From the IMG/VR virus record IMGVR_UViG_3300046791_000643, positions 1-38,245 of that record: DNA of 38,245 nucleotides. One strand, given 5' to 3'. The stretch comes from a virus. Made by a program: the position numbers and the translations under genes. The notes below the pieces were generated by a model. The model made no database searches and was not told where the DNA came from. It saw nothing but the letters and a program-made list of their open reading frames with translations. The stretch's first letter is position 1. Each line of letters begins with the position of its first letter. Shown here in pieces: positions 4,093 through 36,456 of the stretch.

Positions 4093-4308
4093 ATGGAATC
4101 GCAGCAGCAGGCCCAGCCGACCGAGCACATTGCGCAGTTCTTCGCCTACGGACACCTCCCGGAGAAGTTCCAGGCGGTGAGCAAGCCGTTCTCCGAGCTC
4201 GCAGAGACCATCATCACCAACCTGCCTCGCAACCCCGAGCGCACGGTGGCCCTCCGCAAGCTGCTGGAGGCCAAGGACGCGGCCGTTCGCGCGGCGCTGG
4301 CGAAGTAG
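4093..4308 (+). CDS. Acb2/Tad1-hairpin-like small protein, possible anti-CBASS sponge
   Basis: A 71-residue protein with an ATG preceded by GAGGAGCACC. It consists of a short N-terminal segment with FFAYGHLP (16-23) and two predicted antiparallel helices: EKFQAVSKPFSELAETIITN (24-43) and ERTVALRKLLEAKDAAVRAA (49-68). This pattern resembles a very common group of small phage proteins that I associate with the Acb2/Tad1 hairpin domain. Acb2 proteins sequester cyclic oligonucleotide signals of CBASS immunity. The match is from memory and the sequence is short, so nucleotide binding is an inference. It stands after a 171-base gap downstream of the recombination genes and before a terminator. Confidence 0.55.
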   Translation: MESQQQAQPTEHIAQFFAYGHLPEKFQAVSKPFSELAETIITNLPRNPERTVALRKLLEAKDAAVRAALAK

Positions 4309-4330
4309 CCGTCCAACCCTTTGCAGCAAC

Positions 4331-4378
4331 CCGCGCCTCGCCCGGCCCTCCCTCCGCCGGACGGGGCGCGGACCTTTT
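4331..4378 (+). terminator. Strong hairpin terminator ending the early operon
   Basis: Stem CCGCGCC (4331-4337) pairs with GGCGCGG (4365-4371). CG/CG and CCGGC/GCCGG extend it around a nine-base loop at 4347-4355, with two single mismatches. ACCTTTT follows. It lies between the Acb2-like gene and the toxin-antitoxin promoter, so it should insulate the two units. The U-tract is short. Confidence 0.7.
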
Positions 4379-4388
4379 CGGAGGTGCC

Positions 4389-4418
4389 ATGACAGACGAG
4401 ACAAAGGACCCTCGGTAA
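4389..4418 (+). CDS. Possible nine-residue ORF with strong ribosome-binding site
   Basis: ATG 4389 is preceded by GGAGGTGCC and opens a frame of nine codons (MTDETKDPR) ending in TAA. The near-ideal ribosome-binding site is the only support. It could be a leader peptide or the remnant of a gene start. It lies between the terminator and the toxin promoter. Confidence 0.25.
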   Translation: MTDETKDPR

Positions 4419-4440
4419 CAGGCCGGATTTGCGGGCATGC

Positions 4441-4474
4441 CATGCCGTGCTTGACATATGTCAGGCGCGGCATG
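4441..4474. promoter_or_regulatory. 34-bp operator palindrome over the toxin-antitoxin promoter
   Basis: Positions 4441-4474 form an inverted repeat in which 15 of 17 base pairs match. The centre is the perfect 12-mer TGACATATGTCA (4452-4463), and the outer arms are CATGCC/GGCATG. It covers the -35 box and most of the spacer. Antitoxins of this type usually repress their own operon, so this is the likely binding site of the HTH antitoxin at 4867. Confidence 0.75.
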
Positions 4475-4480
4475 TATCAT
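4451..4480 (+). promoter_or_regulatory. Promoter of the toxin-antitoxin operon
   Basis: TTGACA (4451-4456), an 18-base spacer and TATCAT (4475-4480). The expected transcription start about seven bases downstream coincides with the A of the toxin ATG at 4487. No ribosome-binding site precedes that ATG, so a leaderless mRNA is likely. Confidence 0.75.
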
Positions 4481-4486
4481 TTGCCC

Positions 4487-4825
4487 ATGCTCGCAATCGT
4501 CCTCTACCGCACCGACGCTGGGAACTCTCCGGTGGAGGAGTACGTCAACGGCCTTGCTGTTGACGCCCGCGCCGACTTGCTGCTCGCCATCAAGAACTTT
4601 GCCGAGGAGTTCCCGACGGTGGTGACGGTGAGCACCAAGCACCTCGACGAAAAGATTTGGGAGATTCGGGTGCGCGATGGTGGCGGCGTTGAGCATCGCG
4701 TCCTTTACGCCGTCGTCGGCTCGACGCTGCTGCTCCTGAATGCCTTCACCAAGAAGACGCAGAAGACGCCGCCCGACCGCATCCGCGAGTCGAAGAAGCG
4801 ACTCAAACGGTGGCTGCAGCAGTAG
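4487..4825 (+). CDS. HigB-like toxin (phage-derived Gp49-like family)
   Basis: A 112-residue protein of the RelE/HigB-like group, which as ribosome-dependent mRNA interferases cut mRNA when the antitoxin is lost. Diagnostic features are KHLDEKIWEIRVRDGGGVEH (51-70) with WEIR, then R71 and Y74, and the C-terminal FTKKTQKTP block (87-95), which fits the Gp49-like family (PF05973). ATG 4487 is chosen over the upstream frame start at 4442 because it opens the conserved domain and sits at the predicted transcription start. The antitoxin gene follows after 41 bases, the toxin-first order typical of HigBA. It may stabilise the prophage or act in phage exclusion; neither is shown. Confidence 0.85.
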   Translation: MLAIVLYRTDAGNSPVEEYVNGLAVDARADLLLAIKNFAEEFPTVVTVSTKHLDEKIWEIRVRDGGGVEHRVLYAVVGSTLLLLNAFTKKTQKTPPDRIRESKKRLKRWLQQ

Positions 4826-4866
4826 TTCGCACGGCCGGGCAACCGGCCCAACAACGGAGGAAGGTC

Positions 4867-5247
4867 ATGGCAAAGGAACCGAAGCTGAACGAGAAGCACA
4901 CCCATCGCGTGGACATCGACGCGTGGATTGAGAAGAACCGCAGCGAGAGCGACGAGTTCCGGAAGGCCTACGACGAGGCGCGGGCGGAGACCCTGCTAGC
5001 CCGCAAGATGGCTGCAGCGCGCGTGGCGGCTCACCTCACGCAGGCCGAGGTCGCCAAGCGAATGGGCACCAACCAGGCCGCAGTGAGCCGCATGGAAAGG
5101 GCGAGCTACACCGGCCACAAAGTCAGCCTTGTGCACCGGTTCGCCGCCGCCGTCGAGTGCGAGGCGGACATCACCTTCCGCCCCATCAGGGCACCGGCAA
5201 CCGTCTCGGCCAAGCGCAGCACGGCGCCGAAGGGCAAGAAGCGATGA
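4867..5247 (+). CDS. HigA-like Xre-family antitoxin
   Basis: A 126-residue protein with an ATG preceded by GGAGGAAGG. The helix-turn-helix spans about residues 56-78 (LTQAEVAKRMGTNQAAVSRM), an Xre type with the usual Q-x-x-V-A and A-V-S-R-x-E positions. The N-terminal 45 residues are charged and probably bind the toxin. The C-terminus (VECEADITFRPI) matches the short beta segment common in this antitoxin group, followed by a basic tail. It should neutralise the HigB-like toxin and repress the operon through the palindrome at 4441-4474. The next gene is convergent, 16 bases away. Confidence 0.85.
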   Translation: MAKEPKLNEKHTHRVDIDAWIEKNRSESDEFRKAYDEARAETLLARKMAAARVAAHLTQAEVAKRMGTNQAAVSRMERASYTGHKVSLVHRFAAAVECEADITFRPIRAPATVSAKRSTAPKGKKR

Positions 5248-10375: not shown

Positions 10376-11923
10376 CTAGGGTGCAGACGTGGGAGGGGCG
10401 ATTAGCCCAAACCGAAGCGCTTGGTCGCGCAGGTGGAAGAGAGAGGTGGCCTCCTGGGGGTCAAAGCCGTACTGGGTGACGAGGAGGTTGAAGACTTCCG
10501 GGTCGCTCTTCCCGGCGAAGTCGGGACCGGTGAGCGTCTGCTGGGCCTTCTTTCCCAACTCCCCGATGCGGCCGGTGACGAATTTCATCATGTCGTTGCT
10601 GCTCATCCGCTCCAGGTTGTGCAACTCCTCGGCGGAGAGGGAGTTGTAGATGCCCATCTTGATGGAGTCGTTGAGGCCGCTCAGTGGGCCGGTGAAGCCC
10701 CAGTTGAACTTGTTGGAGTTGAGCTTCCCGCCCATGGAGTTGATTCCCTTGTCCATGGCCTCCCGCGCCGCGCCGTGGTGCGACTTGCCGGTGGCGCCAG
10801 TCACTGCCCACGAGACAGGGTCCAGCGCTTCGCCGATGTCGCCAACCGTGTTCTCGAAACGGTTGTTCTCGGTGTACGCCTTCCAGTCCTCGGCCTTCCC
10901 CTCGCCGGACTTGAGGTGCATCGCGTCGAGTCTCTCCTGGCTGGCCTTCGCAGCTGCCGCGTTGGCGGCCTCGGTCGCGGCATTGGCTGCCGCCTGCCTG
11001 TCGAGCGCCGAGCGCGCCGCGTCCGCCTGAGTCTTCACGTTGGCGCGCGCAGCATCAGATACGCCCTTTGAAGCCTCATTCGCGGCCTTCGCGCCGCCGA
11101 CAAGGTTGCCGTACTCCTCGTTGAGGCGGTCCCATTCCGGGCGGCCAGCGGAACCAAGGAGCCCCGCGTCCATCTTGGACTGGCCCTGGGTGTAGGGGCC
11201 GCCCACCTGACTCTGCAGAAGCGCCTGGATGCCCGCGTCGCCCCGGAGCTCTCCCGCCTCGTTGCGGTGGCCAGTGAGTCCGACATCGCGCTGCGCTTCC
11301 CCCGCCCCGGCGAGGATGTCTCCCCAGCCGGCGTCCTCGTCCATGGAGTTGGGCCCGGCGTACGTCCATTCCGACTGCGCCCTGGCCTGCTCCGGCGTCA
11401 GGGTTGCGCCGCTGACGGGGCCTTGGCTCTGGATGGCCGTGTTGGTGGGGGACGCGGGCTTGCTTTGTGTGGGCGAGGCGAAGCCAGGCACCGTCTGCGC
11501 CGAGAGCGCCGCGTAGGGGCTCGTCGGCTTCCCGGTGGGCTGCTGGGTTGCCGCCGGCTTCGCCGAGAAGGGCGCGGCGGGCTGCATCTGGGAAGGGAGC
11601 CCCGCCTGCACCTTGTTGGCGAAGGCGTTGGAGGCGCTGGCGACGGCCTGCTTCGACGCCTGGCCGGCCTGCTGGAGTGGCTGAGCCACCTTCTTCGAGT
11701 ACGCCGTGGCCGCGTCCTTGTTGGCCCCGAGCAGACGGTCAAAGCTGACGAAGTTGGTGGACGGCTTCGCCGGACGTCCGGAGGCTCCGGCGCCACCCAT
11801 CGGGTGCGTGGGGGCTCCACCGCCGGAGATGGCCGGGGCGGCGGACGCAGCGGGGCCAGCGGAGCCGGCAGACTCCTGGCGGGCCTTCTCATCCTCGTCT
11901 TCAGTCGGCAGGACGTAGGCCAT
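10376..11923 (-). CDS. Virion structural protein of unknown role
   Basis: A 515-residue protein. Residues 1-160 are low-complexity Ala/Pro/Ser/Gln, beginning with an acidic MAYVLPTEDEDEKARQES. Residues 250-330 are Ala-rich helices that look like a coiled coil, and the C-terminal 180 residues are globular (ending SLFHLRDQALRFGLIAPPTS). Its stop is ten bases before the next gene and its ATG three bases after the previous stop, so it belongs to the nozzle-to-internal-protein cluster. It is probably a minor virion or ejection protein; no family was recognised. Confidence 0.55.
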   Translation of the reverse strand: MAYVLPTEDEDEKARQESAGSAGPAASAAPAISGGGAPTHPMGGAGASGRPAKPSTNFVSFDRLLGANKDAATAYSKKVAQPLQQAGQASKQAVASASNAFANKVQAGLPSQMQPAAPFSAKPAATQQPTGKPTSPYAALSAQTVPGFASPTQSKPASPTNTAIQSQGPVSGATLTPEQARAQSEWTYAGPNSMDEDAGWGDILAGAGEAQRDVGLTGHRNEAGELRGDAGIQALLQSQVGGPYTQGQSKMDAGLLGSAGRPEWDRLNEEYGNLVGGAKAANEASKGVSDAARANVKTQADAARSALDRQAAANAATEAANAAAAKASQERLDAMHLKSGEGKAEDWKAYTENNRFENTVGDIGEALDPVSWAVTGATGKSHHGAAREAMDKGINSMGGKLNSNKFNWGFTGPLSGLNDSIKMGIYNSLSAEELHNLERMSSNDMMKFVTGRIGELGKKAQQTLTGPDFAGKSDPEVFNLLVTQYGFDPQEATSLFHLRDQALRFGLIAPPTSAP

Positions 11924-11926
11924 GGG

Positions 11927-12325
11927 CTACTCGTAGATGAAGTTGCAGAGGTACGTGGTGGACGCCGACAGGCCCCGGAAGGTGACTGACAGGGCGCCGG
12001 ACGAGGTGAGGCGCCAGGAGAGGCTCCACACGGTGGTGGGCGCGTCCCCATTCTCGAGCACCAGGCGCGTGCAGATGAGGTGCTTGGGGCTGGTGGGGAT
12101 TTCCGGGCGGAAGGTGACTTCGCCCAAGGCAGAGGCGTCGGAGTTGAAGCGCAGCCCCACCTTCTCGTTGCCGCGGAAATTCTCCGCGCGGCTCAGGTTG
12201 CGCGTCAGGGCGTTGGCGACGCTGCCCATGAAGTCATTGAGGATGGCGAACAGCGGGTCCAGCGACGCCGGGGCACCGGGGATGGACTCGCGGGAGATGC
12301 TGCGGATGCGCGGAGGAGGTGCCAT
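11927..12325 (-). CDS. Small conserved podovirus structural protein
   Basis: A 132-residue protein. The N-terminus PPPRIRSISRESIPGAP, followed by LDPLFAILNDFMGSVANALT and a beta-rich C-terminal half (VGLRFNSDASALGEVTFRPE onward), fits a small protein often found between the nozzle and internal virion protein genes of podoviruses. The last half looks like a beta-sandwich. It overlaps the nozzle gene stop by one base. The role is probably structural in the tail; I know of no assigned function. Confidence 0.6.
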   Translation of the reverse strand: MAPPPRIRSISRESIPGAPASLDPLFAILNDFMGSVANALTRNLSRAENFRGNEKVGLRFNSDASALGEVTFRPEIPTSPKHLICTRLVLENGDAPTTVWSLSWRLTSSGALSVTFRGLSASTTYLCNFIYE

Positions 12326-15057
12326 CAGGGCTTGCTCGCCGTACCGGCGGCCTCCAGGTGAAGGGTGAAGCCGTTGAGCGCCCAGATGGCCCAGGCCTGG
12401 CGAATTCTGGCGCCGACGCGGATGTAGCTGGCCATCTGCGCAGAGCGCGCCACCTCGGCCCGGCGGTTGCGCAGGCCCATGGGGAAGCCGAAGGCGCCGT
12501 AGCCAAATGGGTCACTCCCGAAGCCGTCCGCAGGCGCCAGCGCCGCCGATTGCTCCGCCAGCACTGTCTCGGTGTCGTAGGTGACGGTGAATTCGTGGCA
12601 GGCGAACTCCCTGAAGTGCATCACCACGTCACGGAACTGGTTGATGTCCGCGGGGCCACCAGGGGCGGAGGGGCACCACTTCAGCTCGACGGGGATGGCC
12701 TTGAAGATGGTGACTGCGGCGGGAACATCGTAGCTCTCGGACGAGCTGACGGTGACGACGTTGGTGTCCTCGTCCACGGCGATGACGAGCGTCCGGGCGT
12801 CGTAGGTGTTTTGAGTGATGACGTCGCCCACCTCGACGTCCGCCACGGAGTCGAGCGTGAGAGTCGCGTAGAAGCCATCGCCCGAGTTGGTGGTGGTGAG
12901 GAGGGTGGCGGAGAGTTCCTCGTCGGCGAAGTCCGTGAAGTCGTAGGACTTGCGCTCGATGCGCACCGTGTTCGCCTCGCCATCACCCAGCACCAGCCTT
13001 CCGTCCACCGGACTGACGAGGCCGAAGGTGCGCGCCATGATCCAGCTCGTCCACGTCTCATCCAGGGAGTTGAAGACGAAGGCCCGGGTCGCGCACGTAT
13101 CCGTGTCTGCCGTGGGGACGAAGAGGATGTACTGCCTGTCGGACTCGTAGGAGACGCCGAAGGCCAACTCTGAAACGACGGCAGGGTTGAGCGCCAGGAC
13201 GTCGAGCAGCTCGTCCTCGATGCCGCGCGAGACGATGCGGAAGCCGGCGTCGCTGAGGATGCCCACGCCCTGGTCCGTGAGGGCGAACACCTGGTTGGCG
13301 TGCACTACCATCGACTCCGGCGCGATGAGGCGAGCCGAGCCGTCCAGCTCGTTCACCGCGTAAGGGGCCTGGCCAGAGACGGTGTAGAACTTCCCCAGCT
13401 TGCTGCCGACGTACATCTTGTCCCGGAAGGGCAGCGCTCGAAGCGCCTCGGAGTTGGCGGGGCCGACAGGGAGCCAGTTGGTGAGCGGGAAGGCCTCGTA
13501 CTCGCCAATCTTCGAGTAGGACAGCCCGCTGGGGCGGGCGTCGTTGGTGGACGTGGCGACGTCAGTGGCGCCGAGCGGCACATCCCACGATGTCACGCGA
13601 GAGGCGAAGACGGTGAAGGAGGCGGCCGAGACTTCGCGGCGCTCGATGAGCATCGAGCCGATGTCCTCGCTCTCTCCGGCGACGTAATAGGCAACGAGGG
13701 TGCCGCCCGTGAAGTTGGTGATGGTGTCGGCGAGGTCTCTCGCGGTGCGCTCCACGTTCTGGGTCGGCGAGCCGTCGGTGAAGATGCGGAAGTCCGTCCC
13801 CAGCACCGGGGCAGTCTTCGCCGTCAGCGTGACGCCATCGACAGTGAAGGTGTCGTTGTTCTGCACTCCTTCCGGCGAGCCAACCCCCAGCATCCGGACA
13901 TAGAAGCGATGCTTGTCCGTCGTGGAGATGCACCAGAGCCTGTCATCCCAGACGGTGACATCCGTGCAGATGGGTGGCCGCTCGTTGCCGTTGACGTCCC
14001 CGTCTCCCGTGTTGGGGTTGGTGTAGAGCGGCACCGAGGACAGCATCGAGTCCGGGGTGATGTCGTTGTAGTCGAACGAGTCGAGCAGGATGGTGGCGGA
14101 GTCGAAGGACAGTTCCTTCAGCAGGAAGAACTCCGCGAGCGGGGCAACACTCGCCAGCGGCGTCAACTCCGTCCGGTAGATGCGCGCGAAATAGGCGTCC
14201 GTGAGTCCGTCCGGAATGGGCACGCGCACGTTGACGCTCTTCGTCTGCACCGTGAGGACTTGCGCCAGCGTGTTGAGGCCAGCAGGCGAAGCCCCGCCCA
14301 CCGTCAGCGTGAAGGTGCTGGATGAGGTGACGACGACGGCATAGGTGCCGGCTGGAATCCCCGTCTCGCCGGGAGAGATGGCGACAGACTCGCCCATCCC
14401 GAAGCCGTGGCCGGGCTTGGTGACGGTAAGCACGCCAGCCCCGTTCTTGGAGATGGTGCCGATGGCCGCGGTGAAGCTGGCGCCGTTTCGCACCACCACC
14501 GGGGCATTGGGCGCGCCCAGCTTCACGTTGTTGTTGGCGTCCTTGGTGCCCCAGACGACTCGGTAGGCGACGGCGGTGTCTGCCGGCATCCAGGCATCGC
14601 CCGGGATAAGCTGCGTGCCGGTGACGAAGTCCCAGGCGCGGACGACGCCGCCTGCCATTGGCGGGCCGGCCAGTGAGTCGAGAAGAAAGACGCCTGCCGC
14701 GGTGGTGAAGTAGAGGTTGCCGCCGGCCTCGGCGAAGCGCACGCGACGGCCCGTGGCTGGCGCAAGGTAGGTGCCGGGGTATTCAGACGGGCTGTCGAAG
14801 GTGTAGCGGGAGAGCCTGTCCTCGGACAGGCCGTGGTGGAAGACAAGGCGCTCTTGGTAGATGGCGCCGGAGAGGCCTCGATCCGCCAATTCAGCCAGCG
14901 TATTCGGGTTGCGGAACTGCCCGCGCCGACACTCGATGATGTACTTGTTGCGCAGGACGGCGTTGGTGGCCCGCACCATCCCGCCCTCCGGCACCGCGGA
15001 GAGCTGGTTGTTGGTGGTGGCGAGGCCCACCGTTTTCAGGACGGAGAAGCTAGCCAC
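12325..15057 (-). CDS. Tail nozzle protein (T7 gp12-like tail tubular B)
   Basis: A 910-residue protein with a GTG start preceded by CGGAGG. The N-terminus (FSVLKTVGLATTNNQLSAVP and GGMVRATNAVLRNKYIIECR) matches the layout of podovirus nozzle proteins. The rest is a long beta-rich chain with many Tyr/Trp/Gly strands, consistent with a propeller plus inserted domains. The nozzle closes the short tail and conducts DNA. It directly follows the adaptor gene, with an eight-base overlap, the usual order. The size is a little larger than T7 gp12 (about 790 residues). The fold is inferred, not proven. Confidence 0.7.
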   Translation of the reverse strand: MASFSVLKTVGLATTNNQLSAVPEGGMVRATNAVLRNKYIIECRRGQFRNPNTLAELADRGLSGAIYQERLVFHHGLSEDRLSRYTFDSPSEYPGTYLAPATGRRVRFAEAGGNLYFTTAAGVFLLDSLAGPPMAGGVVRAWDFVTGTQLIPGDAWMPADTAVAYRVVWGTKDANNNVKLGAPNAPVVVRNGASFTAAIGTISKNGAGVLTVTKPGHGFGMGESVAISPGETGIPAGTYAVVVTSSSTFTLTVGGASPAGLNTLAQVLTVQTKSVNVRVPIPDGLTDAYFARIYRTELTPLASVAPLAEFFLLKELSFDSATILLDSFDYNDITPDSMLSSVPLYTNPNTGDGDVNGNERPPICTDVTVWDDRLWCISTTDKHRFYVRMLGVGSPEGVQNNDTFTVDGVTLTAKTAPVLGTDFRIFTDGSPTQNVERTARDLADTITNFTGGTLVAYYVAGESEDIGSMLIERREVSAASFTVFASRVTSWDVPLGATDVATSTNDARPSGLSYSKIGEYEAFPLTNWLPVGPANSEALRALPFRDKMYVGSKLGKFYTVSGQAPYAVNELDGSARLIAPESMVVHANQVFALTDQGVGILSDAGFRIVSRGIEDELLDVLALNPAVVSELAFGVSYESDRQYILFVPTADTDTCATRAFVFNSLDETWTSWIMARTFGLVSPVDGRLVLGDGEANTVRIERKSYDFTDFADEELSATLLTTTNSGDGFYATLTLDSVADVEVGDVITQNTYDARTLVIAVDEDTNVVTVSSSESYDVPAAVTIFKAIPVELKWCPSAPGGPADINQFRDVVMHFREFACHEFTVTYDTETVLAEQSAALAPADGFGSDPFGYGAFGFPMGLRNRRAEVARSAQMASYIRVGARIRQAWAIWALNGFTLHLEAAGTASKP

Positions 15058-15985
15058 TGAACCTCCGGCGCCGCCCCCACCGGTTCCACCCCGGCCCGTT
15101 GCGGTTGATGAGGAGCCCTTCGCTGGCCTCCACTCGCGGAGAGAGAAGCGCCTTTGCCTGTTGCTCGGCCTCGTCCAGCGAGGCCTTCGCGGCCTGCGCC
15201 CCGGGGTCCTTCTGGCCCAGCAGGTAGACGTAGACGGCGCGCTTTACCAACAGGTCCTGCATCTCCAGCGGCGCGTTGCAGATGGGCGTCTGGCCGGCCA
15301 GCGCAACGAAGTCGCCGGCGGCCAAGGCGCTGGGCAGTTCTGCCGGAGCAAACGCCAGCACCAGGCCCGAGAGCGGCGCGGTGAGGTCCATCGCCATGAC
15401 GTCGAAGTGCGGGGTGCCGCGGATGAAGTCGTATTGCGATGAAGGGTAGGGGCTGGGGAGAAAGCCGGCCGGAGCGGAGAGCAGCGTCACTTCCCCCGTG
15501 CTGGTGTCGATGCTCTCCACCTCGCCCGCCTCCTCCGCAGGCACCAGCGTGCTGAAGCGCCGGTAGTAGGTGATTCGCAGAGAGCCGGCGGCGGTGACGC
15601 TGGGCAGGAGGCGGAGGTTGTTGCCCTCCAGCACGAAGTCGCCGGTGCCGTAGCCGTCTCCACCATACACCGCGGCGTCGTGCTGGTTGATGGGCTCCAG
15701 CACCACGTAGTCGCCGCCCACCTGGCGCTCGACAAGCTTGATGCCTGCCGCCACCGCGCGCGTCGGCAGGCGGTACGTCTGGACGCCGGAGACGAGGGGG
15801 ATGTTTTGCGTCTGCTCCTGGTACTCCTCGCGGACGGACTTGAGCACCGTCATCAGGTACAGGCGCTGCTCTCGGTTGAGGAGCCGACGAATACGAGGCG
15901 TGAACGAAGCTTCCGCAGAGCCGGGGAAGACTCCTTCCTCCTTCGCTGCGGTGATGAGCTCGTCCGCCAGGTATTCGTTGGGCAC
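15050..15985 (-). CDS. Head-to-tail adaptor (T7 gp11-like)
   Basis: A 311-residue protein with a GTG start preceded by GGGAGG. The N-terminal helical part (YLADELITAAKEEGVFPG and FTPRIRRLLNREQRLYLMTV) is followed by a beta-rich centre with SGVQTYRLPTRAVAAGIKLV and LRITYYRRFSTLVP, and C-terminal helices (LLVKRAVYVYLLGQKDPGAQ). This is the arrangement of podovirus tail adaptor proteins, which join the portal to the nozzle. The nozzle gene overlaps its end. The C-terminal basic tail (NRWGRRRRFSG) may contact DNA or portal. Confidence 0.65.
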   Translation of the reverse strand: MPNEYLADELITAAKEEGVFPGSAEASFTPRIRRLLNREQRLYLMTVLKSVREEYQEQTQNIPLVSGVQTYRLPTRAVAAGIKLVERQVGGDYVVLEPINQHDAAVYGGDGYGTGDFVLEGNNLRLLPSVTAAGSLRITYYRRFSTLVPAEEAGEVESIDTSTGEVTLLSAPAGFLPSPYPSSQYDFIRGTPHFDVMAMDLTAPLSGLVLAFAPAELPSALAAGDFVALAGQTPICNAPLEMQDLLVKRAVYVYLLGQKDPGAQAAKASLDEAEQQAKALLSPRVEASEGLLINRNGPGWNRWGRRRRFSG

Positions 15986-16255: not shown

Positions 16256-16756
16256 CTACACCTCGGTCACTTTCATGGCGGCGTACACCTGGTTTGCGGT
16301 GCCGGAGATGCCGACACCGCCGACACACGAAACGGAGATTCTGTCTCCCGCGGCGAAGGTGACGGAGTTGAGCAAATCCGCCACCTGAGTCCCTGCGACA
16401 GGCAGGACGCACGCAAGGAGGGTGTCCACGCCGTTCTTCCGGACGGTGATGGTGAGTCCGGCGCCGGCGGGCCCATTCGCCGCCTGCACGTAGAGGCGAG
16501 AAATGATGCAGTCCAGGGGCACGCGGAAGCTGATTTCCATGCCGCCAGCGTTCTGGTTGGAGCCGAAGGGCCGCAGGAAGTTGAGGCTGGTGTCAGCCGG
16601 CGCCGTGCCTGCGGAGAACGTCACCAGCGACACTGCGGGCGCGCTGGCCGCCGCCGCCACGGCCCTGGCGAACTCAATTTGCTTCTGGGCGGTGTCCACC
16701 TCTCCGGACGAAGGGTAGAGGTAGTCGGCGCCGTCCACGGTGATGGTGACGCTCAT
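16256..16756 (-). CDS. Beta-sandwich virion protein (fibre or decoration type)
   Basis: A 166-residue protein. ATG 16756 overlaps the preceding stop (ATGA). The N-terminal 50 residues begin with a short strand pair (VTITVDGADYLYP) and an Ala-rich helix. The remainder is a jelly-roll-like domain with PLDCIISRLYVQAANGPAGA, LTITVRKNGV and FAAGDRISVSC, a pattern repeatedly found in phage tail-fibre and decoration proteins. It is probably exposed on the virion. It follows the three Sec-signal genes. Confidence 0.55.
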   Translation of the reverse strand: MSVTITVDGADYLYPSSGEVDTAQKQIEFARAVAAAASAPAVSLVTFSAGTAPADTSLNFLRPFGSNQNAGGMEISFRVPLDCIISRLYVQAANGPAGAGLTITVRKNGVDTLLACVLPVAGTQVADLLNSVTFAAGDRISVSCVGGVGISGTANQVYAAMKVTEV

Positions 16757-17370
16757 TGCGGGCACTCCTGGGGCCAGCTCTCGTCCCCTTCGGCGAAGAG
16801 GACGGGGCCTGGGTACTTTCTGAAGCAGCCGGGCCCCACCCAGGTGTCCGGCGACAGCGTGACGCCGAGTGGCGCAGTGACGAGGCCGCCATCCTGCTGG
16901 GGAGTGCGGCACCTGCCGGCATCCGGGCGGTAGCAGGCGCCCGCCTCCAGGCCCTGGGAGGGGTAGTCGTAGGTGCAGACGACCGGAGAGCTGCAAGAGC
17001 CAACCTCCAGCACCGTGCACGCCTCGGCAACGCTGCCAACCGGGATGATGCAGAAGCCGCCGTCGGGCCTGCTGGGAAAGTCGGGGAGGATGAGGGTTGA
17101 GCCTTCGTCGCCGCCGTCAAAAAACCGCGCCCGGACTTGGCCCGTCAGGTACGCCGGCAGGGGCTCTCCGTCTGGCAGTGGGAGGTTCCGGCAGTCCGGG
17201 TGCACGTAGAAGCGGCACTCCAGCCGCGCGGGCGTGGAGACATCCAGAAGGCCGGCGTCAATGGCGTCGTCCCGGGTGAAGCCAGGACCGAGGACGGCGA
17301 GCGTATACACCGCGCCTGCGGTGGCAACGGTGCCGAGGATGACAAGCATCGCGCGGAGAGCGGGACTCAC
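16753..17370 (-). CDS. Cysteine-rich protein with N-terminal membrane anchor or signal
   Basis: A 205-residue protein. GTG 17370 is set by the GTGA overlap with the upstream stop; another in-frame GTG lies six bases earlier. Residues 1-28 are a basic start and hydrophobic stretch (ALRAMLVILGTVATAGAVYT), a signal peptide or anchor. The mature part has about eleven cysteines (for example LECRFYVHPDCRNL, EACTVLEVGSCSSPVVCTYD, AGACYRPDAGRC), a content expected for a disulphide-bonded protein outside the cytoplasm. No family was recognised. It lies between tail genes and follows two genes whose products also carry signal peptides. Confidence 0.6.
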   Translation of the reverse strand: MSPALRAMLVILGTVATAGAVYTLAVLGPGFTRDDAIDAGLLDVSTPARLECRFYVHPDCRNLPLPDGEPLPAYLTGQVRARFFDGGDEGSTLILPDFPSRPDGGFCIIPVGSVAEACTVLEVGSCSSPVVCTYDYPSQGLEAGACYRPDAGRCRTPQQDGGLVTAPLGVTLSPDTWVGPGCFRKYPGPVLFAEGDESWPQECPQ

Positions 17371-18620
17371 AGGCACCCCGCGAAGGAGTTCTCGAGACGC
17401 AACGCCCGGATGTAGCCCGTGAAGTTGGCGCTGCTTCCGCAGGTGCTGCCAAGGCAGACGGTGCCGGAAGCGGCGAAGTCCGTCCCCGCCTGCGTCGCCG
17501 CGGTGGCGCCGTTGACTTGAATCGAACCGAGTAGCGAGGGCAAGGTGCGCCAGGAGCCACGGCCGACGCTGGTGGTGCCGAAGAGCGCCGCCGCCACAGT
17601 GGGGCCGCCGCCCGTTGTTGCGAAGGTCCCCAGCGTGGTTCCTGCGCTGGGCCAGTAGATGGCGGCGTCGCTGTTGGAGCCACCGCTGGTGCCGACGATG
17701 TAGATGCTCCCGGCTGTCTTCACGGTCGGGAAGGTAATCGTCGCGGTGGCGCAGCCCTCGGCCTCGGGGAATGTCAGCGCGAAGCTGGCGAGCTCAGGAG
17801 AACGCACGACTGTGGTGCCAGCCGTCGCGATGTAGCTCGTCGCTCGGCTCTGGCCCTTTTCGAGCTGGGCGCCCCAGACGAGTAGATCGACGGCGGTGGC
17901 GCCAGTGGGGACGTTGACGCCAATGACGGCGCCAGAGCCAGCAGTCGAGCCGAACAACTGCGAGAAGGTGAACCGCTGCCAGGACGTCGTCGCGGTGAGG
18001 TCCGCGCTCCGGAAGTCGGCGACGCCGTTGTGAGTCAGCTTCAGTCGAAAGAGCTGGGAGCTGCCGGTGTTGCTCTTCACGTAGAAGGCTGTCGTGTGCG
18101 TCGCAGCCTCGTAGATGCCGCTGATGGTCTGCTGAACGACGGCGTTCGCGTCGCCGGCCGAAATCTGCACCCGGTCCGCAGTGCTGGCTCCATTGGGACC
18201 GACCCCGGCGTTTGCTGTGACGGTGCCGGAGAAGATGGTCCAGACGGCGTTCTCTAATTCCTCTGAGCGAAGCGCGACATTCGTCCTCGTCTCCTCCGTG
18301 AGGAGGCCGTTCGCCTCGATGCGAGCCTGGTTGCTGGTGTGCAGGACAATCGTCCCGTCGCTCTTGGCGCAGTAGGCCGAGCTTGAGCGCGTGAAGTTGA
18401 GTGTCTGGCCTGTCGCGGCGACAAGGACAGCGCCAGTACATTCGTCCGACGCGGAGACGCTGGGAAGAAAGCTCAAGAGCGCGGTGGCCGCCGCAGCGCC
18501 TGCCCCCGCACCGCTGGAGGGGAAGCGCTCAGGGCTCAACCCTCCGCTGCGGATGCTCTTCGAGAGCGCCTGCGCGTTCGCCAGTTGGGCGAGGACGAGA
18601 AGAGGGAGAGCCCAGCGCAT
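17367..18620 (-). CDS. Tail-fibre-like protein with carbohydrate-binding module and signal peptide
   Basis: A 417-residue protein. The N-terminus MRWALPLLVLAQLANAQALS is a textbook Sec signal with an ANA or AQA cleavage site. Residues 95-280 hold a module common in phage fibres: LLTEETRTNVALRSEELENA, then VWTIFSGTVTANAGVGPNGA, and the closing WGAQLEKGQSRATSYIAT, resembling family 4/9 carbohydrate-binding modules. The C-terminal region is another beta-rich domain with paired cysteines (CLGSTC). ATG 18620 (TGATG overlap) is preferred; a GTG lies one codon upstream. It may be a fibre, but a secreted surface-binding protein fits the signal better. Confidence 0.6.
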   Translation of the reverse strand: MRWALPLLVLAQLANAQALSKSIRSGGLSPERFPSSGAGAGAAAATALLSFLPSVSASDECTGAVLVAATGQTLNFTRSSSAYCAKSDGTIVLHTSNQARIEANGLLTEETRTNVALRSEELENAVWTIFSGTVTANAGVGPNGASTADRVQISAGDANAVVQQTISGIYEAATHTTAFYVKSNTGSSQLFRLKLTHNGVADFRSADLTATTSWQRFTFSQLFGSTAGSGAVIGVNVPTGATAVDLLVWGAQLEKGQSRATSYIATAGTTVVRSPELASFALTFPEAEGCATATITFPTVKTAGSIYIVGTSGGSNSDAAIYWPSAGTTLGTFATTGGGPTVAAALFGTTSVGRGSWRTLPSLLGSIQVNGATAATQAGTDFAASGTVCLGSTCGSSANFTGYIRALRLENSFAGCL

Positions 18621-18964
18621 CACCGCACCTCGGTGACGATGGTGGCCGCCCCCGTCACCTGGTTGGCGGTCGCGGCGATGCAGGAAATTCGGTAGCCCGG
18701 GGGCAAGTCGATGGCCCAGGACTCGTTGGTGGCGAGGCGCCGCGCCTTGTTGAGCACCGCCGTCGGCGTCGTGTTGGACACCTTGCAGTAGATGGCGTTG
18801 GGCCCGAGGTTCTGCACCTCGATGCCCTTGCGTTGCTCAATGCCCACGTCCACGCGCGTGGAAGTCGTCAGCACCAACACCTCGTTCTGCTGCGTGGTGC
18901 TTGGAGACGACTGCCCCAGCACCGGGAGGGCCATGGCTGCGAGGAGAAGAGCGGTTTTCTTCAT
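18620..18964 (-). CDS. Small secreted protein with Sec signal peptide
   Basis: A 114-residue protein. MKKTALLLAAMALPVLGQSS is a clear Sec signal (KK, hydrophobic core, VLG-Q cleavage). The mature 95 residues are beta-rich (VLVLTTSTRVDVGIEQRKGI and NLGPNAIYCKVSNT) and resemble small virion decoration domains that coat or cap fibres. It ends in a TGATG overlap with the fibre-like gene and starts seven bases after the stop of the repeated-domain protein. A virion protein with a cleavable signal would be unusual, so export to the envelope is the simplest reading. Confidence 0.6.
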   Translation of the reverse strand: MKKTALLLAAMALPVLGQSSPSTTQQNEVLVLTTSTRVDVGIEQRKGIEVQNLGPNAIYCKVSNTTPTAVLNKARRLATNESWAIDLPPGYRISCIAATANQVTGAATIVTEVR

Positions 18965-18971: not shown

Positions 18972-19799
18972 TCAGAAGGTGAAGACCGTGGAGGAGCCGC
19001 CAGAGAAGCGCGCCCCGGAAACCAGGAGCCGCGTGCCGTTGGAGCTGGCCAGGGTGTGGACGTTGCCGGTCTGCCCCTTCTCCACCGCGCAGAGGAGGAC
19101 GGAGGCAGCCGCTGCCAGCGTGGTGCCGGAGACGGTAATTCCCGCGCCGGACTTCGACAGGCCCAGCGTCTGGGTCGGCCCAAAGGGGAGCTGCCGCACC
19201 GTGACGAGGCCAGCGGCGCTCGACGCAACCACCTGCTCACGAAGGAAGGGGTGAGCGTTGACTTTGGCCACCAGCGAAAACGCATCCGTCGTGTCGCTGC
19301 CGGAGATGTCGAACGTGGTGGTCGAGGTAGCGGGCCCGCCGACTGCGGTGAAAGTGACTCCACCAATGGTGACCGTCTGTCCGGCGGTGACGCCCGCCAG
19401 GGTGACCGTGCCGCTCCGGTTGTCGGCCTTCACATAGCCCGAGACGAGGGGCGTGACGGAGGCGTTGACGCTCGTTACGAATCCCGAGGCGTCCACGATG
19501 TCCGTGCCGTCCACGGAGAACTGGTTCGCACCGGCGGCACCGGCCACGGCGGTGAAAACGACGCCGTTGATGGTGACGGTGTCCGCCGCGGCGACGGCCG
19601 CCAGGGTGACGAGGGCGTTGCCGTACGTGGCGCCCGCCGTGATGCTGGGCCGGGACTGAGCGCGGCCCAGAATGCCGCTGCCTGCGATGGCGCGCAGGTA
19701 CTCGGCGAAGCGGTTCACCTTCTCCCGCGGCTTGCGGGTGAGATAGGTGCCGAAGGGGTCCTCACCCTCGGGGACGTAGATGGTGACGGTGCTCTTCAT
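18972..19799 (-). CDS. Virion protein with duplicated beta domain, possible decoration protein
   Basis: A 275-residue protein, ATG preceded by AGGGAG. The N-terminal 50 residues carry a basic helix (REKVNRFAEYLRAIAGSG). A domain of about 50 residues then occurs twice (63-113 and 132-182), each with a strand pair of the form TVTIxGVxFTAV, then a GTD/GSD element, an F helix and V-N-A. A third, shorter beta region follows. Such repeats are frequent in phage head or tail surface proteins. It lies directly downstream of the major capsid gene after a hairpin, consistent with a decoration protein. Confidence 0.55.
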   Translation of the reverse strand: MKSTVTIYVPEGEDPFGTYLTRKPREKVNRFAEYLRAIAGSGILGRAQSRPSITAGATYGNALVTLAAVAAADTVTINGVVFTAVAGAAGANQFSVDGTDIVDASGFVTSVNASVTPLVSGYVKADNRSGTVTLAGVTAGQTVTIGGVTFTAVGGPATSTTTFDISGSDTTDAFSLVAKVNAHPFLREQVVASSAAGLVTVRQLPFGPTQTLGLSKSGAGITVSGTTLAAAASVLLCAVEKGQTGNVHTLASSNGTRLLVSGARFSGGSSTVFTF

Positions 19800-19891: not shown

Positions 19892-21178
19892 TCAGGTGTA
19901 GGTAATTCCAGTGCCGTACATGCTGTGGTTGGGGCGCTTGTTGATGACGCATTGGTCCGTCTGCAGCTGGATGCCGGCCAGGTTGGTTCCCATGATGGGG
20001 TACCAGTGCTGCTCGCCATCCACGCCGGGGATGCCGAACTCCAGGTCCATGCTGCCCACGCGCCCGACGTTGGCCGGGTTGAGCAGGAGGAACTCTCCCT
20101 GCGCCATGAAGGGGTGGTTGACGAGCTCAATCTCCCCAATCTCCGCGGACGCGTAGCCGATGGCCTTGTGGCCCAGCTTCGCTCTCTCCGGCGAGTAGCT
20201 GGCGTCGAAGTTCCGGTTCACCTTCGCCTCAGCCATCGCCTGGCCGAACGCCTTGTTCGCCAGGTACAGCTCCAGCTTCCCGGAGGCGCCGCGGTCCCGG
20301 AGCAGGCCCACCGCGTCCTCGATGACGTCGGAGTTGAAGTTTCCGCCGACGTCGTAGGTGTTGCCCTTCCAGTTGCCGTACACCGACGCGTCAATTCCGA
20401 GGGACGTGCCGGAGATGTTGCTCGACTGGGCGATGAGCCCCGCCATCTCGTTCCATGCGACGGACGAGGTGGGGTCCGTGGTGGCGCCCTCGAAGTACAG
20501 GTTGTCCGCCGCCGTGACTTCGGAGGCGAGCGTGCCCGTGTAGCTGACGGTGATTTTGCGCTCCGCCGCCTTGATGCCGGCCAACACCAGGGGGCCAGAG
20601 GCGTTGTTCTTCGTGGCCGCGGTGAACGCGTCGAACGTCGCGCCTTCGCTCAGCGCCCAGAAGAGGCCGGGACGCCACGTGGCCTGGGTGATGGTGAGGT
20701 CCGCCAGGCCAGCGCCCAAGTCCGTCACCGTCTCGACGGTGCCGAGCGTCTTCTGGCCGATGATGATGCTGGCCTCGACGCGGTTGGACGCGGACAGCTT
20801 CATCCCCTTGTAGGTTTCCGACGCCAGGGCGGCGAAGGCGCCGTCCCCGGCGGCTGCGGCGCGGGCCAGGGCCTGCGTCACCAGCCGCTCCTCCAAGATG
20901 AAGGCGGAGGGGACAACGCTGGCCTGCTTCACTACCTGGGGGCGGGGCTGCTTGAGCGACGTGTTGGCGGTGCCCGCGCTGCCCAGGTAGGTGTAGCCGT
21001 TGGGGAAGCGGAGCGTCATCGGCGACTGGTAGGACTCGCCAATTGCCCGGCTGCCCTTGTCCCAACCGACTCGCTTCGTGACGATGCTGCAGTCGCTCCG
21101 GAGATCCTGGAGTCCCGACTTGTCGTAGACCCGCTTCGCCATACCGTTAATGTCTGAGAACGTTGTTTCGCCAGCCAT
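19892..21178 (-). CDS. Major capsid protein
   Basis: A 428-residue protein placed directly after the scaffold and portal genes. It shows the balanced alpha/beta composition of HK97-fold coat proteins of podoviruses: N-terminal arm (AGETTFSDINGMAKRVYD), spine helix region (VVPSAFILEERLVTQALARA), and a C-terminal part with FGIPGVDGEQHWYPIMGTNL and the ending HSMYGTGITYT. No separate decoration or protease domain is fused. ATG 21178 has only a weak ribosome site (CAGGTG). The 257-base gap upstream may hold its own promoter. The identification is from gene order and overall pattern. Confidence 0.8.
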   Translation of the reverse strand: MAGETTFSDINGMAKRVYDKSGLQDLRSDCSIVTKRVGWDKGSRAIGESYQSPMTLRFPNGYTYLGSAGTANTSLKQPRPQVVKQASVVPSAFILEERLVTQALARAAAAGDGAFAALASETYKGMKLSASNRVEASIIIGQKTLGTVETVTDLGAGLADLTITQATWRPGLFWALSEGATFDAFTAATKNNASGPLVLAGIKAAERKITVSYTGTLASEVTAADNLYFEGATTDPTSSVAWNEMAGLIAQSSNISGTSLGIDASVYGNWKGNTYDVGGNFNSDVIEDAVGLLRDRGASGKLELYLANKAFGQAMAEAKVNRNFDASYSPERAKLGHKAIGYASAEIGEIELVNHPFMAQGEFLLLNPANVGRVGSMDLEFGIPGVDGEQHWYPIMGTNLAGIQLQTDQCVINKRPNHSMYGTGITYT

Positions 21179-24577: not shown

Positions 24578-26182
24578 TCAACGCCGCGCCCGGAGGCGTC
24601 TGGCGAGCGGGCTGTTCCCGAAAATGGCGATGGCCGCCTTCTCCCGCTGCTCTGCCTGCATCCGGGCCTGGATGCCGTTGGCCACCACGGGCTGGTGCCA
24701 GTGTCTGGGGTACGGGTTGCGCTGCCTGTCCACGTTCCGCATCGAGTAGACGCCCGTGTCGAGCAAGTCCCCGTGCTCTCCGCCCTTGCGCGCGTACTCC
24801 TTGCGCCGCACGTCCTTCCACGTCGTCTGGCGGAAGTGCCTGTCGGTGTGAGCGCAGCGCGGGTGCAGGAGGTACTCCTCGCGGCGGAGGGCGACGCGGA
24901 AGTTGTTCACCGCCGCCTGCTTGTCGTCCTTCGCGGTGTTGAGGAAGGCCAGCTTGTGGAGCTGCCACAAGTCGCGGGCCATCGTGATGTTGATGTCCAT
25001 CACGCGCATGTAGGGCTGCGGCTGGGCCTCCTTGGCCAGGATGTCCTGCATCCACTCCGGCACCATCTGGGCGATGACGCCGTCCTTATCCTCGGCAGCG
25101 GCGCGCAGGGTGCCGTCGAACAACTCCGTGCCGTAGAGCTCTCGCTCCTTCCCCTTGATGCGCGCGGCCAGGTCCTCGGTGTTTTCCCCGTCGCGCAGCA
25201 GCAGCTCGTCCTCCTGGACGTACTTGGCCATCCCGAAGTGCCAGTAGCCGAAGGTGACGGCGTGCGGGTCATTCCCGCCGGGGTCCAGCACCGTCATCGC
25301 GTCGTAGAATTCCGGGCGCACCACGGGGCGGATGAGGGTGCTGCGCTTGTTCTCCCAGTCGTCGCCCAGCACGACGAGGAGTTTGTTGACGACGCGCTCT
25401 GCCAGGTACTCGCGGCGGAACGAGTCTGTGCGCTGGTACTCCTCGGGCGTCAGCCCCTCGTCCTTGGCGTCCGTCTCGATGAAGCGGCGGACCTGCGCCT
25501 CCGTGAGGAGCGGGTTGTCCCAGACGGTTCGCTTCGCGTAGTTGCCCCGCGCCTCTGCGCGCTCGGCCACCGCGGTGAAGTCGTGGTCCGGCTCCTCGGC
25601 TGGCGAGGAGGCGTAGAGGATTTTCCCGCCGCTGTGGAGCAGCTGAGGCCGAAGGACTGAACGGCGCACGTAGTCGAAAATGGGGATGAAGCCGCACTCG
25701 TCCAGGATGGCTTCCACGGCGCCAGGCCCACGGCCCCGGTTCGCCTTGCGCTTGTCGTCGCACCCGAAGAGGTGGATGTGCCCGCCATTCTCGCAGTCGA
25801 AGTGCATTCGCTGGCCGTTGAAGTGCCACCGGAGGCCGGGCGGGGCGTCGGCGGTGATGGCTTCGATGTGGGGGATGATGAATTCGGTGAGATCCTTCAG
25901 CGTGGGCGCGCCGTACACCACGCGGCCGCCCGTCTGGACCACGCGCTCAACGGCCCTGGCTCCGAGGTAGCGGGACTTCCCCCAGCGTCGGGCAATCTCC
26001 AGCACGAAGGAGTCGGCACCGGCATCGAACGCGGCCACCACCTGCGCGTGGACTCGCCTCTGGTCCTCGTGCAGCTTCCACAGCAGGTTGCCAGCGCGCC
26101 ACAGCGCATCCGTCGCGGCGCGGTAGACGGCGACGGCCTCCGGGCTAATGCCCGTTGCTGTTGGCGACTGCGGCGACTCCAT
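24578..26182 (-). CDS. terL: Large terminase subunit (packaging ATPase and nuclease)
   Basis: A 534-residue protein. The ATPase shows the terminase-type Walker A IARRWGKSRYLG (63-74; RRWGKS), Walker B EAILDECGF (157-165) with catalytic Glu, and coupling motif LYASSP (189-194). The RNase H-like nuclease begins near VLDPGGNDPHAVTFGYW (298-314), with Asp300 as a likely metal ligand. Terminases cut concatemeric DNA and pump it through the portal. The gene overlaps the preceding small protein gene by 38 bases and is followed by the portal. Length and motif order are normal. Confidence 0.92.
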   Translation of the reverse strand: MESPQSPTATGISPEAVAVYRAATDALWRAGNLLWKLHEDQRRVHAQVVAAFDAGADSFVLEIARRWGKSRYLGARAVERVVQTGGRVVYGAPTLKDLTEFIIPHIEAITADAPPGLRWHFNGQRMHFDCENGGHIHLFGCDDKRKANRGRGPGAVEAILDECGFIPIFDYVRRSVLRPQLLHSGGKILYASSPAEEPDHDFTAVAERAEARGNYAKRTVWDNPLLTEAQVRRFIETDAKDEGLTPEEYQRTDSFRREYLAERVVNKLLVVLGDDWENKRSTLIRPVVRPEFYDAMTVLDPGGNDPHAVTFGYWHFGMAKYVQEDELLLRDGENTEDLAARIKGKERELYGTELFDGTLRAAAEDKDGVIAQMVPEWMQDILAKEAQPQPYMRVMDINITMARDLWQLHKLAFLNTAKDDKQAAVNNFRVALRREEYLLHPRCAHTDRHFRQTTWKDVRRKEYARKGGEHGDLLDTGVYSMRNVDRQRNPYPRHWHQPVVANGIQARMQAEQREKAAIAIFGNSPLARRLRARR

Positions 26183-26627: not shown

Positions 26628-26836
26628 GGGACCCGCTCGCAGTCCGGGCACACCATCAGCGAGCCAATCCTCTCCGGCTCGGTCGCCTTGAGCGGGAACG
26701 GAAACGTGCGGTCACACTTCGAGCAACCCCAGAGCAGGCTGTTGCGAACAAGCGCGAGCACGTCTGCCTCCGTCCTCGGCCGCGTGTCGCCTGTCGGTTG
26801 GATGCGCTTCGCCTTCTGCCGACGCGAGACACCCAT
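26624..26836 (-). CDS. Small zinc-ribbon protein
   Basis: A 70-residue protein starting MGVSRRQKAKRIQPTG. ATG 26836 is set by a TGATG overlap. Two CxxC pairs, CSKC in the middle and CPDC at the end, form a probable zinc ribbon, with a basic N-terminus suited to nucleic acid. It lies just before the small terminase gene, where many phages carry HNH-type or zinc proteins, but no HNH residues are present. The function is unknown. Confidence 0.6.
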   Translation of the reverse strand: MGVSRRQKAKRIQPTGDTRPRTEADVLALVRNSLLWGCSKCDRTFPFPLKATEPERIGSLMVCPDCERVP

Positions 26837-27090
26837 CACGGCACGTCCACCACGAGGGGCGTGCGCTCCCTCTTTGCCTTCTCCGCTTCCCGCGCGTCGA
26901 TGACGGCGCACTTGTTGAGCAGCTCGCGGAACTCTCGGGCCGTCACCTTCTCGTCGATGTCGTCACGCTTGGCCGACACGGAGAGAATGCCCACCTCAAC
27001 GCGCCAGCCCTTCCGACGCAGCGCCATGTAGCAGGCGCGCTGGGCCGTGTGGCTGATTCGGGTGTGGAAGGTGCCGGGGCGGAGGTGCAT
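26836..27090 (-). CDS. Small protein resembling endonuclease-like VRR or Holliday-type fold, uncertain
   Basis: An 84-residue protein starting MHLRPGTFHTRISHTAQRAC. ATG 27090 is two bases after the upstream stop. The sequence YMALRRKGWRVEVGILSVSA has a beta-strand pattern after a helix, reminiscent of small nuclease folds, but no catalytic motif can be confirmed. Basic N-terminus, acidic middle (KRDDIDEKVTAREFREL). It belongs to the run of small coupled genes before the terminase. Unknown function. Confidence 0.5.
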   Translation of the reverse strand: MHLRPGTFHTRISHTAQRACYMALRRKGWRVEVGILSVSAKRDDIDEKVTAREFRELLNKCAVIDAREAEKAKRERTPLVVDVP

Positions 27091-27092
27091 GG

Positions 27093-27386
27093 CTAGTTGA
27101 CCTGGCCGTCCGTGGGGCAAGCCTCGCCAGGAGGGACGAGCCCGCCGCAGGTGGAGCACGAGTACCGAGCGAGGAACTCCTTCACGCCAGCGCGAGCCTC
27201 TGCCGGATTACACGAGATGCAGGCCAGGCCCTTTGCGAACCGGTCGCCACACGTGCACTGGACCATCTCCGGCTCGATAACTCGCCCGACGCCGACCGGC
27301 TGAGCAGCGGTCTTCTCCGCCGCAGCCAGGAGTGCGGCTTCGATGGCCGTGCGCTCCGCTTCACTCTGCTGCTTGCGCTTCGCCAT
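27093..27386 (-). CDS. Small zinc-binding protein, two cysteine clusters
   Basis: A 97-residue protein. The N-terminal half is a charged, Ala-rich helix. The C-terminal half has two cysteine clusters, VQCTCGDRFAKGLACISCNP and YSCSTCGGLVPPGEACP, each able to bind one zinc. This is a double zinc-ribbon arrangement of unknown role. The start overlaps the end of the preceding gene by 26 bases. Confidence 0.6.
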   Translation of the reverse strand: MAKRKQQSEAERTAIEAALLAAAEKTAAQPVGVGRVIEPEMVQCTCGDRFAKGLACISCNPAEARAGVKEFLARYSCSTCGGLVPPGEACPTDGQVN

Positions 27387-27606
27387 TGGAGTGCTCCATG
27401 TGCCAGGTGAAGTACTGCGCCAGCGCGTCCACCCAAGTCGGGCCCGACGCCACGAGGTACGCCACGCCGTCGCCCTGGAGCAGCACCTGGCAGCGGTGCG
27501 CCCGCGCGGCGTTGCGTGCGATGCGAACGAAGGCGGCGGCGTTGAGCTTCCGCGCCTGGGCGTTGGCTCGCATGGAGTCGTAGGGGATGGCGGGGCTCTG
27601 CTTCAC
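27361..27606 (-). CDS. Small protein of unknown function
   Basis: An 81-residue protein. Basic helical N-terminus (RANAQARKLNAAAFVRIARN), then a short beta segment RCQVLLQGDGVAYLVASGP and a helix WVDALAQYFTWHM. No motif was recognised. It overlaps its neighbours by four bases upstream and 26 bases downstream, so it is translationally coupled in the chain of small genes preceding the terminase. Confidence 0.6.
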   Translation of the reverse strand: MKQSPAIPYDSMRANAQARKLNAAAFVRIARNAARAHRCQVLLQGDGVAYLVASGPTWVDALAQYFTWHMEHSNGEAQAAE

Positions 27607-33374: not shown

Positions 33375-33607
33375 TGGCCACCCCTCCGCTTGTTGTGCGT
33401 GTCGAACTCCGCGGCGCAGTCCGGGCAGCGCACGCGGTAGCCCTCGTTCCACAGGTACTCGGCGCAGCCCGGGCACTTCACGACGCCAGGGTCCGCGAAT
33501 GCGGCAGCCATCCAGTTCACCTCGCCGTCTGCATCAATCACCGGCCCGGCAGGATTCGGCTCGCACCAAGGGAAGGCAGGCCCATCGAGAATGATGGGGT
33601 GCTTCAC
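33371..33607 (-). CDS. Small zinc-ribbon protein
   Basis: A 78-residue protein with a GTG start in a GTGA overlap. The N-terminal half is Pro/Trp-rich (ILDGPAFPWCEPNPAGPVID). The C-terminal half is a zinc ribbon, VVKCPGCAEYLWNEGYRVRC followed by PDCAAEFD, with two CxxC pairs about 17 residues apart. It ends in a basic tail. It may bind nucleic acid or serve as an adaptor. Unknown function. Confidence 0.7.
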   Translation of the reverse strand: MKHPIILDGPAFPWCEPNPAGPVIDADGEVNWMAAAFADPGVVKCPGCAEYLWNEGYRVRCPDCAAEFDTHNKRRGGQ

Positions 33608-36121: not shown

Positions 36122-36456
36122 GCGAAACCCTCATTTTTCTCCACGAGCACCCAGGCGCGCGGGCCGTGGCGCTGGTACGTCTCACCGTGGAGCGGCCCAT
36201 GAAGGACGATGCGCCAGTCGTGGTCCTCGTCGCGCGCGGCCATTTCCTCGGCTCGCTCGACAGAGAGACAGTCCTCGAAGTCGTTCCCGGCCTCCTGCCA
36301 GACGGTTTCGCCATCACGCTCAAGGGCTGCGTCGCCGAACCCCACGGCGATGACGCGCCCCATGTCGAGCAGCGTCTCGATGTCCGGGCAGTTGAGACAC
36401 GGGTGGTGGCCTCCCTCAAGCGCAGGAAGGCGCTTCCATTTCGCGGTTCGGCTCAC
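36118..36456 (-). CDS. Protein of unknown function (Cys-containing, acidic)
   Basis: A 112-residue protein with a GTG start set by the GTGA overlap. Visible parts are KWKRLPALEGGHHPCLNCPD (6-25), a strand-turn region with VIAVGFGDAALERDGETVWQ, an acidic helix, and a final strand pair DWRIVLHGPLHGETYQ and AWVLVEKNEGF. Similar LxxGGHxxCxNCPD proteins occur in phages. No function is known. Confidence 0.65.
   Translation of the reverse strand: MSRTAKWKRLPALEGGHHPCLNCPDIETLLDMGRVIAVGFGDAALERDGETVWQEAGNDFEDCLSVERAEEMAARDEDHDWRIVLHGPLHGETYQRHGPRAWVLVEKNEGFA

Follow-up and report, generated by a model that had tools for sequence, protein, structure and literature searches.

Sec-type signals on a late gene cassette of an environmental phage: candidate spike and fibre proteins possibly matured in the periplasm

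The locus and its late genes

The window, meaning the whole stretch of DNA analyzed here, is the entire IMG/VR record IMGVR_UViG_3300046791_000643 (38,245 bases). It encodes a tyrosine integrase as well as YqaJ and ERF for recombination, and its late cluster is on the minus strand. This cluster runs in the order terminase, portal, scaffold-like gene, capsid, a 275-aa protein, P0001-P0003, P0004, tail-tube-like genes and ejection-like proteins. We take the product of 19892..21178 (minus) to be the probable major capsid protein because its gene is placed after the portal and scaffold-like genes; it is 97% identical in the nearest relative, IMGVR_UViG_3300046798_000187. The cassette P0001-P0003 is sited directly downstream of the capsid gene, the gene for the 275-aa protein (18972..19799, minus), which has no signal, lying in between. 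A preliminary description had assigned the three genes to the tail region, which was loosely put: they do belong to the late cluster, but their position is between the capsid gene and the tail-tube-like genes.

P0001 (18620..18964, minus; ATG start, 114 aa) comprises a predicted signal peptide at residues 1-17 and a small beta domain with Cys60 and Cys95. P0002 (17367..18620, minus; ATG start, 417 aa) comprises a predicted signal at residues 1 to about 18, a conserved QALSKSIRSGGLSPERFP segment, a jelly roll resembling carbohydrate-binding modules (residues 107-280) and a variable C-terminus. P0003 (16753..17370, minus; GTG start, 205 aa) has a hydrophobic N-terminus, either signal or anchor, and 10 conserved cysteines (residues 52, 60, 107, 118, 126, 132, 146, 154, 182 and 203) rather than the eleven or so counted earlier. 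P0004 (16256..16756, minus; 166 aa) overlaps the P0003 stop codon, has no signal and is a possible non-exported fibre. Further along the cluster, the product of 15050..15985 (minus) is tail-tube-A-like by a weak PHROG match and is syntenic in a Silvanigrella phage; a 910-aa tail protein (12325..15057, minus) also has a relative in that Silvanigrella phage (E 9e-48). A scan with a tail-tube-A profile returned no match.

Along the path from P0001 through P0002 and P0003 to P0004, each stop codon overlaps the next start (TGATG, GTGA and ATGA, respectively), so the four genes are probably translationally coupled. This arrangement bears on the possibility that the cassette consists of lysogenic-conversion (moron) genes, with a function for the host cell in the lysogenic state. 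The phage does encode an integrase, the phages Mx8 and Mx9 discussed below are temperate, and conversion genes often encode envelope proteins. However, the cassette genes overlap one another and P0004 and share their strand with the structural genes, which argues against a separate transcription unit, and similar cassettes occur in two phage records, MW202477 and MW202637, with no annotated integrase. We consider this explanation very improbable.

We suspect that the host belongs to the Myxococcota because of the GC content of the window and the similarity to Mx8 and Mx9. A scan of genomes with the P0001 profile matched a single genome, with none further among 200 genomes of the same phylum. 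Three incidental features were also recorded: at 4487-5247 of the window, a Gp49-type (DUF891) toxin-like gene with a possible antitoxin gene behind it; poly-C (7-31) and poly-G (38220-38244) runs at the record ends, probably an assembly artefact; and, in the Silvanigrella phage record CP017838 (L011), an identical 153-aa minus-strand ORF start at 1859-2320 and 10921-11382.

Export signals and cysteines

Signals were scored with a home-made Sec scorer, on which 13 classical E. coli signal peptides used as controls reached 6.7-8.7. P0001, P0002 and P0003 scored 5.92, 7.85 and 7.83, which is within or slightly under the control range, and the earlier claim of three consecutive genes with Sec-type N-termini held up, with coordinates and frames correct. 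Whole-protein shuffles reached the observed score in 83, 7 and 2 of 3000 trials, respectively. Besides P0001 and P0002, the only ones of the 56 called genes in the window to score at least 5.5 encode two small membrane proteins; P0003 had been trimmed by the gene caller to a later start and, from its GTG start, also scores at least 5.5. By the same scorer, both P0001 (MKKTALLLAAMALPVLG|QSSPS, the bar marking the predicted cleavage) and P0002 (MRWALPLLVLAQLANAQA|LSKS) have a basic n-region, a hydrophobic core and small residues at -3/-1. P0001 has the weakest score of the three, and its relatives in L002, L003, L012 and Mx9 score 7.5-8.8.

Comparison with the nearest relative revealed that the signal sequences of the cassette drift yet keep their signal character. 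For P0001, identity between the two phages is 43% in the first 20 residues and at least 90% beyond; for P0003, it is 37% in the first 30 residues and 67-92% beyond. The hydrophobic part of the P0002 N-terminus is not conserved, whereas the QALS.xIRSGGLSPERFP stretch that follows it is. The possibility that these are chance signals in GC-rich sequence was ruled out by the scores, the shuffles and the conservation. As a prediction from sequence, Sec export of the cassette proteins is well supported. Cleavage of P0003 is uncertain because the relative does not keep a cleavage site in this hydrophobic segment, which may be a membrane anchor rather than a cleaved signal. As the preliminary description had anticipated, the cassette itself is conserved: the relative has four consecutive signal genes and a weaker fifth, the two added genes (MTSRTAVLLAVFALASSALGQ..., score 8.05, and the weaker MTPSVALLSLVLSQA..., score 4.65) being located ahead of the P0004 homologue.

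The cassette is also rich in cysteine. It holds 18 cysteines in 729 residues versus 18 in 5209 for the other late genes (p 3e-8; p 0.002 with P0003 left out), so that 12% of the late-gene residues account for half of the 36 cysteines; the ejection-protein-like products have none. In the P0001 family, signal and cysteine pair are either both present (the window, its relative L002, L003, L012 and Mx9) or both absent (L004/L006/L017, L019 and L084). Counted by independent clades, this is 4 versus 3 (p 0.029), a covariation that is suggestive of export. Five scored signal-bearing members of the P0002 family, which include L048 with an uncertain start and the MW202477 member with a weak signal, are richer in cysteine than 33 members without a signal (p 0.002).

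Phage relatives of the cassette proteins

P0002 matches a PHROG tail-protein family (E 4.8e-24) and has relatives at 46 IMG/VR loci. Its family profile matches the head-spike fibre Rcc01080 of RcGTA with an E value of 1.7e-57 (1.7e-5 for P0002 alone). Residues 107-280 are confidently predicted to form a jelly roll, the fold of which matches carbohydrate-binding modules of families 4, 16 and 22 as well as appendage domains of phages Pa193, E217 and CBA120 (Z 13-16). On these profile and fold matches, P0002 is a member of the spike/fibre family, and its jelly roll is predicted to bind carbohydrate; the suggestion of an adhesin-like, carbohydrate-binding domain in this cassette was borne out at the level of structure prediction. 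After residue 280, identity between the window and its relative falls to 15-28%, compared with approximately 50% in the remainder, and a diverged C-terminus of this kind is the pattern usual for receptor-binding proteins.

Many proteins of tailed phages are predicted to be structurally related to P0001, itself a small beta protein; they are approximately 90-100 residues long, which leaves no space for a signal. Genes of this family are found near and downstream of capsid genes or adjoining fibre genes (Mx8, Mx9 and L084). In fold, P0001 resembles spike and turret proteins weakly (best Z 8.6; mean pLDDT of 62), and the RcGTA base protein Rcc01079 gave no profile match to P0001 and is not among the fold matches listed. 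We infer from position and predicted fold that P0001 could be the base-like partner of a spike. For P0003, searches of Pfam, PHROG and PDB gave no family, and tblastn gave no relative among phages. The idea that P0001 and P0002 are generic secreted proteins without phage relatives was discarded, as phage relatives were found for both.

Members of the P0001 family also turn up in other settings. In Mx9, p15 (L010 6467-7192) has a signal and a P0001-family domain joined to a lipase-like domain of the GDSL/SGNH type (Pfam Lipase_GDSL_2, E 4e-5, under the curated cut-off); in Mx8, the P0001-family and lipase-like parts are separate, with p66 between them. The Mx8 P0001-family gene at NC_003085 37860-38166 (L009 8889-9195) has p65 annotated on its opposite strand, and, compared with Mx9, its sense frame seems to be broken in the record as deposited. 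L003 has a signal-bearing P0001-family gene (4241-4765) within the apparent neck/sheath block of a contractile-tailed phage.

There is a second fibre family in which a signal has been joined to a virion-type protein. The N-termini of Mx8 p64 and Mx9 p14 read MRYLPSAAGLAVGVLLGVIISVSTPASATRN(S/A)VGTYTLPGGNPVV, and the signal sits exactly before an RN..GTY block that is the canonical tail-fibre N-terminus; a protein of Stenotrophomonas phage BUCT555 has the N-terminus MPRNGSGTYLLPTG, and one of a Bradyrhizobium phage likewise starts at the block. No signal precedes the block in 78 of the 80 IMG/VR loci of this family, the exceptions being Mx8 itself and L084, whose signal (MKKLFVLPVVLLLASGALA) is unrelated to that of Mx8. 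The L084 locus has a P0001-family relative in a neighbourhood like that of Mx9 (39% identity; hhalign E 5e-9). As in the window, the n-region of the Mx8 p64 signal is basic and its -3/-1 positions hold small residues. Against the export reading, each of the p64 and L084 fibres has just 2 cysteines, hardly above their relatives. Between p64 and p14 the first 200 residues are 98-100% identical and the last 80 just 36-37%, and the p64 gene comes after the antirepressor gene, the position that the tailspike gene has relative to ant in P22. Comparable signals were found in none of the tested genes of Mx4 and T7, nor in the P22 structural genes. Mx8 and Mx9 thus resemble the window in that a signal-bearing virion-type fibre adjoins a signal-bearing P0001-family protein with more signal genes behind (Mx8 p66 is signal-bearing too), but the fibre is of a family other than that of P0002 and is located after the antirepressor. 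The Mx8 and Mx9 records annotate these genes as hypothetical or tail fibre and make no mention of export. Elsewhere in Mx8, p58 (L009 4326-4751), in the antirepressor-side region and oriented opposite to the late genes, has a lipoprotein-like N-terminus, MRILLALLAAVALFACGG.

MW202477 and MW202637 are circular records of uncultured groundwater podophages that encode a DNA polymerase. Both have signal-bearing late genes at the fibre position, including a P0002 relative and small neighbours; the latter resemble P0001 by eye, but profile comparison gave no confirmation. A further fibre-like signal gene is found at 36156-36752 of MW202477, directly after the annotated stabilization protein, and at 25580-26113 of MW202637. 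Behind the P0002 relative of MW202477 is an unannotated 265-aa ORF with 12 cysteines and a P0003-like N-terminus (MTPKLRNMITAVG...DAGILDG), and the likeness of P0003 to this ORF is confined to its first 44 residues. In common with the window, these phages have cysteine-rich, signal-bearing P0002 relatives flanked by small signal-bearing proteins; they differ in that the cassette lies behind a large ejection-type gene and in having several extra signal-bearing fibre-like genes. Unannotated signal-bearing ORFs with several cysteines were noted at 33156-33494 of MW202637 (L082) and 26679-27476 of MW202477 (L081), and the late protein encoded at L082 34963-35475 is lipoprotein-like and contains an HELFH motif, which may mark it as a metalloprotease.

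One alternative is that there is no export and that the hydrophobic N-termini serve to dock the proteins within the particle, as in the RcGTA head fibre, where residues 2-10 (an Ile-Ala-Leu-Gly-Leu repeat) dock onto the base pentamer (PMC7296036). The best fit to this scenario is the P0002 relative of MW202477, which starts MLTIALALALAAP, has no basic n-region and scores 4.08. Against it, P0001, P0002 and Mx8 p64 do have basic n-regions and small -3/-1 residues, and in P0002 it is the segment downstream of the hydrophobic part, not the hydrophobic part itself, that is conserved between the window and its relative. Docking would also leave the signals on P0001, P0003, Mx8 p64, p66 and others, as well as the cysteines, unexplained. 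We find this alternative improbable.

A possible periplasmic route for virion appendages

The preliminary description reasoned that export excludes a role in the virion. Our data do not support this: the nearest relative of P0002 with a solved structure is a head-spike fibre of a virion, relatives of P0001 adjoin capsid and fibre genes, and in Mx8 and Mx9 a signal is fused to a canonical tail-fibre N-terminus. We favor the possibility that P0001 and P0002 are cleaved and in virions. More specifically, and with about even confidence, we propose that P0001-P0003 are virion appendages of the head-spike/fibre type that have acquired Sec export, mature in the periplasm and dock at lysis. The observations behind this proposal are the signal sequences, the membership of P0002 in its family, the conservation of the cassette, the covariation of cysteines and signals and the signal-fibre fusion of Mx8 and Mx9.

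In this scheme, P0001-P0003 would be made late, from a single block with coupled translation downstream of the capsid gene, and carried by Sec over the inner membrane, where the signals of P0001 and P0002 would be cleaved. Cysteine pairs would oxidize to disulfides in the periplasm. P0001 would serve as a small base, P0002 as a saccharide-binding spike and P0003 as a cysteine-rich partner, secreted or membrane-tethered. At lysis, the matured spikes would encounter particles put together in the cytoplasm and attach to them, presumably via the conserved segment behind the signal. Topology poses no obstacle to spikes being added from outside, and the P22 tailspike is known to attach to particles lacking tails in extracts.

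The main rival, which is the view of the preliminary description and which we judge less likely though credible, holds that these are secreted adhesins that never join the particle: co-opted spike/fibre domains would cover the infected cell or be released on lysis, and would mask sugars, block superinfection or keep progeny off debris. Signals, cysteine pairs and the saccharide-binding fold of P0002 are all compatible with such a role. Since P0004 and other late genes lack signals, other receptor-binding proteins are possible, and the exported proteins need not be in the particle; signal-less genes such as P0004 could supply the virion fibres. There is also precedent in T4 Spackle, a cleaved periplasmic phage protein that acts against later infection (PMC7650644). 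However, the signal in Mx8 and Mx9 precedes the full canonical fibre N-terminus common to signal-less fibres, which a free adhesin would not need. Moreover, base-like and fibre-like partners are exported jointly, by our reading of their signals, and the genes lie within a late structural operon.

If the appendage reading is correct, it may extend beyond the window. Tentatively, and at somewhat less than even confidence, we suggest a periplasmic maturation route for tailed-phage appendages, which would be Sec-exported, disulfide-bonded and virion-completing at lysis, and which would have been gained several times by fusion of signals to spike/fibre genes in phages of Myxococcus and other environmental phages. 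Tailed-phage assembly is currently understood as cytoplasmic, and we found no description of exported virion fibres or spikes in the small part of the open-access literature hits that was examined. Should the route exist, the make-up of the virion, the determinants of host range and the way host Sec/Dsb are used would need rethinking in these phages, and a signal peptide on a late gene would cease to be grounds for calling its product non-virion. Mx8 in Myxococcus xanthus is a laboratory model that makes the idea of exported appendages directly testable.

Among known systems, T4 Spackle (gp61.3) is similar in that it is phage-encoded, has its signal cleaved off and carries a disulfide in the periplasm, but it is an inhibitor of the gp5 lysozyme and not an appendage. 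The RcGTA head spike (Rcc01079 base and Rcc01080 fibre) is similar in other respects. Its fibres, which allow attachment to the capsule, are seated on small jelly-roll base pentamers at the capsid vertices (PMC7296036; PMC10218006), and it has in common with the cassette a fibre domain homologous by profile, a saccharide-binding fold and a small beta protein encoded alongside. Unlike RcGTA, in which the fibre starts with the Leu-repeat docking peptide, the two genes of the window carry Sec-type signals and cysteine pairs, and the N-terminus of P0002, while hydrophobic, is signal-like and varies between the two closest phages.
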